Origin: Serpula lacrymans var. lacrymans S7.9
Taxonomy: Eukaryota > Basidiomycota > Agaricomycetes > Boletales > Serpulaceae
NCBI RefSeq assembly: GCF_000218685.1
Contig: NW_006763298.1
Coordinates: 1,832,869-1,896,868 of the forward strand
Direction: 5' to 3'
Length of the DNA stretch: 64,000 bases
This document shows positions 18,654-64,000 of this stretch, piece by piece. Made by a program: the position numbers and the translations under genes. A model generated the notes under the pieces. It saw only the letters and a program-made list of their open reading frames with translations, had not been told where the DNA came from and made no database searches. Every line of letters starts with the position of its first letter. Position 1 is the stretch's first letter.

Positions 18654-21600
18654 ATGTCGTTTCAAGGCCTAATCACTCTCTTTCGTCAGCGAGTCGCAGC
18701 AGAACCTACCGCAATTGCTGTTCAGGACCAATATTTCACTCTTACATATTCAGAATTGGAGCGATGGTCAAACAATCTTAGCCACGAGATCTTTTTCCGC
18801 CTGAAAAATACCACAGGATCCAGCACAGTTGCAATCTGTATACCCCGTTCTGCCCTCTTCGTAGTTTCTGTCCTGGCTGTTGTCAAGACTGGTTTATCAT
18901 ATCTCCCTCTTGATCCCTCCGCTCCTCCAGCTAGACTCGACGATCAGGTCTTACAATCTGATGCCCGTCTTCTTCTTACCGGGTCCGGACATCAAGTGGC
19001 ATCACTTGGCCGTGCCATTCCGTTCGACATAGTACCTTTCGTGGAACGCACTTGTATCTTTGGCCATACCGAACTTCCTTCATCCTGCCTGAATCCGCAA
19101 AACGGTACACTGGTCATATTCTTTACATCTGGCAGCACGGGACGTCCCAAGGGAGTGCTGATTCAACATGTGAGCATTCCAGTAACCGTACAACTATTCT
19201 GCCGCTCATTTTAATCGAAGGTTGGGATGACGAACATGGTCAAAGGCCGTCTTATGGAGATACAGCCGGGAGATCGTGTAGCCATGGTCAACAATATCAC
19301 GTTCGACGTCTCTTCACTTGACATCTGGGGCACTCTTTGTCACGGCGGAACCCTATTTGTTTTGACTGCGCACCTTGCAGATACTGAAGCCGTCGTCGCT
19401 TTCTTCGTAGAGAACTCGATTACGAAAGCATTCCTACCGACCGCGGTTTTTCATCATATTATCAGTGATGTATCCAACGCAGTTTCTCTCAGTAAAACAC
19501 TTGACCTGTTAGTCGTTGGTGGCGAGAAACTCCAAACAGCTCCTGTCAAAAATTTCTTCCGTCATGCACCAACTACTAGACTGGTTAATCTTTATGGCCC
19601 TACCGAAGCTACCGTTTATATCACAACTTTTGAGATACCTACAGGCAACTTTGATTACGACGATTCGTTCTCCCGTCCAATACCTATAGGTCGTTGTCTT
19701 CCCAACACAACCGTTTACCTTTTGGATGATAAACTTCGTCCTGTGGAACTTGGCCATCCAGGTGAAATATGTATCGGCGGCGCTGGCCTTGCTGCGGGCT
19801 ATCTTGGTCAACCCGATATTACTTCCAGCAAATTCGGTACGTCTGCTTCACATTTCACAACTACCAAATTCAAATTTATGTCTTATATCCACAGTCACGG
19901 TCAATAATCTCGAAGGAGATGGTTCTTTGACTCGAGTCTATCGTACAGGAGACATTGGCCGATTTATTCCATCCGTAGATGGTCATCTACTGGAATTCGT
20001 AGGACGAAATGATAATCAAGTTAAGATTCGTGGACAAAGGCTAGAGCCCGGAGAGATTGAGGCTGTCTTGTGTGCTGGATCAGATGGGATAGACCAAGCC
20101 GCTGTTGTCGTAACCGCAGATGACCAACTTATAGCCTATGTAGTCCAAAAGGATGATGTTAGCCTTACAGATCCCTCTGGACATCGGGAGCAGGCCAGCG
20201 ACAGTGTGAGACTCAGGGAGGCTTTTTATCATCAACATTTCGAGAACATAGACCCGGCATTGGTTGGAGCCGATTTTACTGGCTGGGTGAAAACTTCCAC
20301 TTGAAATAATCCGCCATCACCCCATTCTGACTTTGAACCATCTATTTTCTTTGATACAGGTTAGTATGTACGATGGAGTACCTATACGTCGATCAGAAAT
20401 GCAGGATTGGCTCTCAGATACTTTGCAGAGTATTCCTGTGAAGCAGAGTGACTCGGTTCTGGAAATCGGGTGTGGAACTGGTATGATATTGTTTTCTCTC
20501 GAATCACGTTGCCAGGAATACTGCGCGATGGATATGCTGGGTTCAGCACTGGATTATGTAAAGGCGCGTCTCGTCGAGCGAGGTCTACAAGAGAAGGTCA
20601 CACTCTTTCAAGGAGTGGCCGACGAACTTGGCCGACTCCTTCCCAGCGAGAAGCGCTTCGATCTGATCATTCTGAACAGCGTCGTTCAATATTTTCCCTC
20701 TTCGGAGTATCTCCACACCGTGCTCAAACTATGTACCGATAAGCTCCAGGATGGCGGACGCATCTTCCTTGGAGATATTCGCAATCTTGGTGTAGACAAG
20801 CATCACGACTTGGCTCGCGTACTGCACTGTGATCCAGATCCTGATTTGCCGACTTCGGAGATTCATGACAGGCTCGATCAGTGGCAGCGTCGGCAAATGG
20901 AACTCAAGGTCAATCCGTCGTTCTTCTTCGGGCTTCAAAACCAGCCTGGCAATCGTATTTCCCATGTCGAAATTGTACCCAAGATGATGTCGGCCCGTAA
21001 CGAACTCAGTCAGTTCCGTTACCAGGTAGTTCTTCACGTTGGCACCTCACCCGAGTTGGTGAAATCCGATCGATGGTTGGGATATACGACTGCTTCGCAG
21101 TTGCGGGAGTTATTGTCCTCTGGTCAGGATATTGTGGCGATTCGAGGCATCCCAAACTCTCTTGTAGCCGTTGAACAGGGGGCTCTACAGCTTATGTCGT
21201 CTTCTCCATCGCCACCCACAGCATCTGAACTTGTTTCCGCGGCCACTGCTTTGGACTCGTGTGTCAATGCTCTGTCACCAAAAGATATCGCCAAACTGTC
21301 TACAAGTCTTGGCTATCAAGTTGACATCAGCATCAAGTCTCTAGGCATCGACCAGTCCATGGCAGCTGTATTTTCGCGTGGTTCGTCGCCTGTCAAAGGC
21401 GATTTCAGCGCTATTGAAACTGATGAACGACTCACCAATTGCCCTACGAAGTCTGTCGAAGCTCATCATGCTCGTGACTTGACCGTCAAGCTGCACGATC
21501 GTTGTCGCGAGAAGCTCCCATCATACATGGTACCTCATCGTATCATCATCAAAGCTAGCTTACCTCTCACCGGAAATGGCAAAGTGGATCGAAGGATGCT

Positions 21601-62507: not shown

Positions 62508-64000
62508 ATGCCGTTTAACGACCTTATTCGTCGTTTTCAGATCCAAGTCAGTCTTCGTCCTGATGCTATTGCAGTCCAGGATGCCTCTTTCACCCTCACT
62601 TATCAAGAATTGGACCGATGGTCTAATAACCTAGCTCGTGAAATTCACTTGCGTGCACGACACTTGAATCTTGAGGTGTCGAGCCCCATCGCCATTTGCA
62701 TCCCCCGTTCTGCTCTCCTCATAGTTTCCGTTCTCGCTGTCGTGAAAGCCGGCTTCTCCTATACGCCTCTCGATTCTGCGGCACCTCTCGCTAGGCTAGA
62801 TGATCAAGTCTCTCAGTGTGGCACCAGCATCCTTCTCGTTGCTGCTGGACTTGCTGGGGACCATATTTCATCCCTTGGTCGGGCTGATACATTTGATATC
62901 GCTGCTTTCATAAATCGAACATGTGTTCAGGAGCACCAGGAACTGGTGCCACCTGACTCAGAACTATGTGACAATACCCTCCTTGCCGTTTTTTGGACAT
63001 CGGGCAGCACTGGACGACCAAAAGGTGTCTGCATCGAGCATGTAAGTCACTCCTCCCGTTCTGATATATATCACCGCTAACATTATGTTCTAGGAAAGTA
63101 TGTTGAACCTCATCGACCGTCGTCTCATGGACATCCAACCTGGTGATCATGTAGCTATGACAGCTACCCCTTCATTTGACGTGTCGTCTTTGGAAATGTG
63201 GAATTCTCTCATCAATGGAGCTACCGTTTTCATTCTTACTTCGAGTTTGGGAGACACAGAAACCACCGTAAAGTTTTTTTGCGAACACAAGATTCAAAAA
63301 GTCTTTCTGCCTACTACTGTATTTCACCGCCTTGCAAACGACGACGAGATCTCATCTTCACTTGGTAAAACTCTAAGCTGGATTCTTGTTGGTGGAGAAA
63401 GGCTCAACATGGCGAGCGTCAATAATTTCTTCCACCATGCTCCCCATACAAGAATTTTGAACGGATATGGATCTGCGGAGACAACCATTCACGCTACAGA
63501 TTTCGAAGTCCCTCGAGATCTTTCCAAATACGACGACGCGGCTGGAAAACCAATTCCTGTTGGACGTCCTATAACAGGGGTGCGAGTTTTTCTCTTGGAT
63601 GAAAACCTTCATGCAGTTGGTTTTGGTATCCCTGGGGAAATTTGTATTAGTGGAGCGGGCCTTGCCCGAGGATACCTGGGCGAATCTCTCTCTTCTTCGA
63701 AGAGATTCGGTGAGTTCTATCGGTTATCCTAAGTATATATACTGATTTTTACATAAATTATTTCAGTCACCATTGCAGATATTGAAGAACCGGGATCCAG
63801 CCTGCGTATCTACCGCACTGGCGATTTGGGCAAGTTTGTTTCCTCAGATCAAGGACCTCTGCTTGAATATGTGGGCCGCATCGACAATCAAGTTAAGATT
63901 CGTGGTCAACGGGTTGAACTCGCTGAAGTGGAAAACGTTTTATGCGCTGGAATGGATGGGGCAGAAGAATCCGCTGTTATTGTCGCAGAAGATAAAATGA
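62508..64000 (+). CDS. NRPS-4: synthetase A domain, cut by window edge
   Basis: Predicted exons 62508-63041, 63094-63709 (616 bp, as in NRPS-1 and NRPS-3) and from 63767 past the end. Motifs: [11 protein letters not shown] (A3 with Trp for Phe), [25 protein letters not shown]. The frame is open to the last base. By homology an inserted methyltransferase and carrier should follow, but this is not visible. The N-terminus [14 protein letters not shown] matches those of NRPS-1 and NRPS-3. Pocket reading, approximate: D-V-L-F-L-G-G-I-H. Terminal domain unknown. Confidence 0.87.

Follow-up and report, generated by a model that had tools for sequence, protein, structure and literature searches.

Dispersed array of single-module synthetases with methyltransferase-interrupted adenylation domains in Serpula lacrymans: candidate free-standing N-methyl-aminoacyl transfer units

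Results and discussion

A 64,000-nt stretch of the genome of Serpula lacrymans var. lacrymans S7.9 (the window; bases 1832869-1896868 of contig 9) holds four of eight paralogous non-ribosomal peptide synthetase (NRPS) loci, named S1 to S8, which lie within 162 kb, and a ninth full-length copy, S9, is located on another contig. As read from the sequence, each full-length copy contains an adenylation (A) domain in which the pocket Asp and A10 Lys are retained, an internal S-adenosylmethionine (SAM) methyltransferase (MT), one carrier (T) with its Ser and one ending. Our favoured interpretation, to which we give about even chances, is that the array encodes free-standing N-methyl-aminoacyl transfer units. 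From the domain content we deduce that the A domain would load one amino acid onto the carrier, where the inserted MT would methylate its nitrogen, and that the terminal condensation (C) domain would then transfer the N-methylated aminoacyl group to an amine or alcohol in solution; the reductase (R) of S5 would instead free an N-methylamino aldehyde. Window numbering is used throughout, and negative positions or those above 64,000 refer to the flanks outside the stretch.

Pfam was searched with six stretches of S4, S5 and S6 and with one of a P450 gene, all from the window. The order obtained was AMP-binding (S5 exon), methyltransferase (on 3 of 3 exons tested), AMP-binding_C, PP-binding (in S6 with 20.3 bits, slightly below the cut-off of 20.8) and then either Condensation (S4, S6) or NAD_binding_4 (S5). 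The same succession of A8, SAM motif, A10 and a single carrier was seen directly in the alignment. Thus, Pfam and motif readings agree with the initial annotation, which had assigned this domain order and the endings C, reductase and C to S4, S5 and S6 (its NRPS-1, NRPS-R and NRPS-3). Throughout a nine-way alignment of the full-length copies, conservation extends to the A3 core, A4 Asp, A8, SAM motif I, A10 Lys and the carrier Ser in LGLHS, and in all nine the MT with SAM motif I lies between A8 and what we take to be the A9 and A10 motifs. This location is the customary site for backbone N-methylation.

S4 occupies 18654-23299 (+ strand; A-MT-T-C by Pfam, gene model and motifs) with exons at 18654-19169, 19221-19836, 19895-20286, 20360-21730 and 21800-23299, the last including the stop; both His are present in its C motif HHAIMDA (22448-22468, +). 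S5 (48960 to ~53851, +) is the A-MT-T-R copy, as judged from Pfam, gene model, motifs and identity to the protein P0002 (SERLA73DRAFT_184486) of S. lacrymans var. lacrymans S7.3. P0002 matches the S5 exon at 100% identity over 30% of the query and, its last residue apart, splices onto the window without frame break, and the 3' end of S5 was modelled from it. The NAD motif TGATGFTG (52414-52437, +) and YxxxK (52988-53002, +) were found in S5, and about 40 residues precede its A domain. S6 (59044-54394, - strand) was read as A-MT-T-C by Pfam, gene models and motifs, with the C motif QQATIDA (55231-55251, -), in which neither His is kept. S7 (NRPS-4 of the initial annotation; +) runs from 62508 to the window end at 64000 and, after extension into the flank, to ~67153, where the A-MT-T-C gene is completed by a C domain with the motif HQSTLDG. 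The N-terminal exon structure proposed as shared for this gene was recovered, since S4, S6 and S7 have the same five-exon layout with GT-AG introns. The first gene models misplaced intron 2 in several copies (a GC donor in S7) and the final models were guided by P0004 (SERLA73DRAFT_110962, S7.3 annotation), which reads as the product of S1, is labelled partial and stops in the carrier; identity tables, trees and the ratios of nonsynonymous to synonymous substitution rates (Ka/Ks) were computed on the first models.

The extent of the array was surveyed by tblastn of 216 kb around the window with the window's synthetase domains. According to tblastn and gene models, the flanks hold S1 (-78928 to -74280, -), S2 (-46.4 to -41.7 kb, -), S3 (-40.1 to -35.4 kb, -) and S8 (78.4-83.1 kb, +), all A-MT-T-C. 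When the S4 MT exon was compared with the whole 42.6 Mb assembly (29 contigs), ten matches were obtained, comprising S1-S8, a match on contig C3 (C3:2196527, 91%) and a short one on contig C5. The C3 match belongs to S9, an A-MT-T-C copy of 1457 codons without stop, and no other cluster gene was found in the 20 kb examined around it. Altogether, S5 is the only A-MT-T-R gene among the nine full-length copies, the other eight being A-MT-T-C. One A domain, one carrier and one terminal C domain per gene were found in S2-S4 and S6-S9, and likewise in S1, the frame of which is broken in the C exon; gene models are open in all copies except S1. On C5 (389498-391554) a relic of the family was detected. 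Its A domain lacks an MT insert and is 59-62% identical to S1, S3, S4 and S9; the region around its carrier contains a stop and a broken frame, and the 10 kb examined there gave no match to a C domain. Beside S1, on the opposite strand (-80901 to -80656, +), 88 residues match the end of the S4 C domain at 37.5% identity and perhaps represent a further family fragment. The set would have expanded through gene duplication.

The four synthetases had been described as one cluster. All four are present, but this description understates the family, and the array is broken by housekeeping genes: PCNA is located between S3 and S4, and matches to Atg22-like, spermine synthase and saccharopine dehydrogenase domains lie between S1 and S2. 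The array therefore does not form a contiguous compact fungal gene cluster, and the synthetases form a dispersed array more than a single cluster, within which the subgroups S2-S3 and S4-S8 could be clusters.

Separate action or a split assembly line

In six of the seven A-MT-T-C copies examined, 0-2 residues precede and 0-3 follow the aligned model, which leaves no room for docking tails, although docking without tails may still occur; the ends of S8 are uncertain (at most 23 residues before and at most 8 after the model). These short ends favour separate action of the units, as does S9, a bare gene copy on another contig that has been kept open and whose domains differ from those of S4 with a Ka/Ks of 0.11-0.24.

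We consider it unlikely that the array is instead a split assembly line, in which every protein would hand its residue via the terminal C domain to the carrier of the protein that follows, with S5 releasing an N-methylated peptide in aldehyde or alcohol form. An eight-residue chain would suit the make-up of the array, whose seven C domains could form seven bonds and whose single reductase could provide one release. S5, the sole possible last module, has about 40 residues ahead of its A domain. Moreover, AmbB of Pseudomonas aeruginosa, a free A, T, C protein, is reported to give L-Ala to the carrier of AmbE (PMC8968710), and its T-C structure is one of the two best solved matches to our predicted S4 T-C model and, by Z, the nearest solved T-C among free-standing enzymes. 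Against such a line stand the near absence of docking tails in six of seven copies, the housekeeping genes that divide S1, S2-S3 and S4-S8, the broken frame of S1, the identical pockets of S6 and S8, the intact lone copy S9, and the three of seven array C domains that lack the second His. The earlier proposal of stand-alone units rather than one line is thus, owing to S9 and the short ends, the best fit, while AmbB and the count of seven C domains and one reductase suit a line.

Several points weigh against free-standing transfer to soluble acceptors. AmbB donates to a carrier and not to a soluble acceptor, and the same source describes the second His as essential in AmbB, as in EntF, TycB1 and SrfA-A (PMC8968710), which counts against activity of S2, S6 and S7. 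The reading frame of S1 is interrupted early in the C domain, which may be an assembly error or a real loss. S9 could act in trans within a line. Finally, no acceptor-making gene was identified among 30 selected surrounding open reading frames (ORFs) surveyed with Pfam, a survey that possibly overlooked others.

Condensation domains

The second His of HHxxxDG is gone in three of the eight C domains (S2, S6, S7) and present in S1, S3, S4, S8 and S9, and four motif types (HH, QH, HQ, QQ) occur across the copies. For S6, a lost active site had been claimed, and its motif bears this out; however, the C domains of S2 and S7, both without the second His, have a Ka/Ks of 0.09 and by this measure are constrained. 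Between S4 and S9, Ka/Ks ranges from 0.11 to 0.24 by domain, with 0.11 for the C domain. For most distant pairs Ks was infinite or had reached saturation, so that only the Ka/Ks values of S4/S9 and S2/S7 were relied on.

These values bear on a further alternative, namely that the loci are mostly degenerating duplicates in a transposon-rich region and that copies without the His are non-functional. The broken S1 frame, the C5 relic, which lacks an MT and contains a stop, retroelement-like ORFs recognized by eye in the window, and the requirement for the second His in AmbB and others, as far as the cited account goes, would fit such decay. We nevertheless regard it as very unlikely, given the open models in eight of nine full-length copies, the low C-domain Ka/Ks of the His-less pair S2/S7 and of S4/S9, and the S6 C domain, whose identity to S2, S7, S4 and S3 (43-53%) is comparable to that of S8 (43-50%).

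A structure model of the S4 T-C part, built from 13 input sequences (ten of them distant) with a mean pLDDT of 74.8, has the two-lobed condensation fold behind the carrier; a model from 3 sequences (33) was discarded. Several C-domain types among the solved structures lie within a few Z units of each other when compared with this model, and hence no subtype was assigned. Another possibility would be self-release, in which each unit frees its own N-methyl amino acid, or couples two residues to a dimer or diketopiperazine, via the C domain. IvoA provides a precedent for release of a free residue in the part of the literature that was covered. With other C-domain types scoring within a few Z units in the predicted structure, and with a motif variety (HH, QH, HQ, QQ) that would be unexpected for a single hydrolysis role, self-release appears quite unlikely.

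Pockets and exchange between copies

Ten-letter pocket codes were taken by eye from the nine-way alignment, at positions that presumably follow PheA numbering. They read DAIAAGAVFK (S1), DVLTLGAIGK (S2), DALVIGIICK (S3), DVLAVGLVYK (S4), DALAIAAVLK (S5), DVLVLGGIHK (S7), DALTVGLIYK (S9) and, identically in S6 and S8, DAFANGGVCK, giving eight distinct codes among nine enzymes. The codes of the four synthetases in the window differ, as the initial annotation had noted, and different substrates are plausible for these four; this does not extend to S8 outside the window, which reads the same as S6.

Sliding identity revealed a 503 bp tract (58059-58561, -) over which S6 and S8 are 95.6% identical, compared with 69.9% gene-wide; none of 1000 shuffles equalled its score. 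It spans A3 (residue 159) to slightly beyond A5 (308), intron 1 included, and contains all pocket-code positions except the A10 Lys. The simplest reading would be gene conversion of the pocket segment, by which this segment alone would have been transferred between copies. A second conversion tract is likely in the MT of S2 and S7, where 200 bp (S2 at -43743 to -43544) are 98% identical compared with 77.7% overall, and again 0 of 1000 shuffles equalled the score. When S4 (18654-19200) was compared with S9, third-position identity was 0.67-0.78 over the first ~180 residues and ~0.8-0.93 across most of the remainder, as if the start of one of the two had been acquired from another relative.

The domain trees do not all concur: A+MT and carrier+C favour different partners for S6. 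Outside the tract, the A+MT tree places S6 with S8 (100%), and both alternatives were rejected (approximately unbiased (AU) test, p 1e-5 and 3e-5). The carrier+C tree favours S6 with S2 and S7 (93%), with S6 and S8 unrejected (AU p 0.085), and the C-only tree gave 89% for the former and AU p 0.10 for the latter. Gln at the second His position is common to S6, S2 and S7, in agreement with the carrier+C grouping. A swap of halves in S6 is only suggested by these trees.

The free-standing units might also act as a toolkit, in which conversion shifts the A3-A5 pocket between genes and the C domain, His-less in some copies yet selected, sets the acceptor; this we regard as possible but doubtful.

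Known systems

Neither the insertion of an MT into an A domain nor a monomodular A-T-C enzyme is new in itself. For the S4 MT-A10 exon the best solved match was 5wmm (E 3.2e-33), which we take to be the interrupted adenylation domain A-MT-A of TioS; as in S4, the MT is inserted in the A domain, but it is a bacterial module and the match is without a terminal C domain.

TqaB and Af12050 of the tryptoquialanine and fumiquinazoline pathways condense a residue with a free molecule, as described in the accessible part of the source (PMC11546977). By that description they resemble the A-MT-T-C copies in having a single A, T and terminal C domain; the text at hand mentions no inserted MT, and one enzyme serves each pathway, compared with eight plus one here. 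AmbB, according to its partial description, likewise has no MT, whereas the array copies carry one. In the bacterial streptothricin ORF18, the excerpts report a C domain (HQxxxDM) in which Gln replaces the second His and which remains active with a free molecule as acceptor; the likeness is by description and not by sequence, and S6 differs in lacking both His. No precedent for a C domain missing both His was present in the literature excerpts examined.

In the wol cluster of Streptomyces, a recombinant A-domain region was located between A2 and A5/A6, as far as the available text goes (PMC9205934). Here, the presumably exchanged segment reaches from A3 to A5, lies in separate single-module fungal genes and would have made two pockets alike, not different. 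Monomodular A-T-C enzymes are named by Bushley and Turgeon, by whose account complete A-T-C modules were absent from most of the monomodular NRPSs they compared (PMC2823734). Among papers containing strings such as A-MT-T-C or A-MT-T-R, PMC12751119 describes an enzyme of three modules. No report of the Serpula locus was found among the matches listed in the open-licence literature (titles and abstract openings).

Homologue searches with the S4 carrier-C exon returned a single protein (P0001, at 70%; its JGI contig is 2368 bp long), those with the seven aligned carrier-C exons returned two, and the S5 exon gave 131, of which 120 were listed. Few of the matches from these searches were fungal, and the collection gives no measure of rarity.

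Genomic neighbourhood

The four P450 genes annotated in the window were all recovered, three by Pfam score of an exon and the fourth by 49-59% identity to gene 3 together with its heme motif. Gene 1 (14011-14952, + for two of its exons) scored 37.6 bits for p450 at 14548-14952, its heme exon being recognized by eye, and is 57% identical to gene 4. Gene 2 (15724-16336, -) consists of two matched pieces with 59% and 49% identity to gene 3 and has the heme motif. Gene 3 (24845-25947, +; two exons) scored 84.8 bits at 25303-25947 and has the heme motif; its exon 24845-25210 had no Pfam match by itself. Gene 4 (exons within 59556-61440, +) scored 53.8 bits at 60982-61440, whereas Pfam recognized nothing in the ORFs 59556-59984 and 60519-60800 upstream of it. 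Elsewhere in the genome, exon 60982-61440 is matched best by two sequences of the array, at 67% and 56%, and the match that follows in score is 35% identical. A fifth P450 gene is located outside the window at ~83.7-84.6 kb.

In the Pfam survey of the surroundings, 16 of the 30 ORFs matched at E 0.01, some of them under the cut-off. Two aldo-keto reductase-like genes (45.3 bits, and 23.8 bits compared with a cut-off of 24) flank S2 and could reduce the S5 aldehyde, and the P450s could complete the products.

Two long ORFs of 1306 and 375 aa (30667-35663, -) resemble a Ty3-type retrotransposon by eye, and related ORFs were seen by eye elsewhere in the window. A short ORF (4744-5076, -) has a weak SnoaL_2 match (20.3 bits, cut-off 27). 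To the right of S8, an Argonaute-like ORF (91302-92474, -) scored 78.6 bits for Piwi, and an ORF similar to it by eye begins at ~98.7 kb.

Conclusions

If the free-standing interpretation holds, a single small protein would pick, N-methylate and deliver a residue, a task that long synthetases perform in line. Should the toolkit also prove true, the family would show how the choice of donor and that of acceptor are mixed and matched by nature within single-module enzymes. With nine full-length copies, eight pocket readings and four C-motif types, the family would offer a test set for two questions: whether a C domain can form a bond without its His, and whether substrates change in nature through movement of the pocket segment alone, which engineers attempt to imitate.
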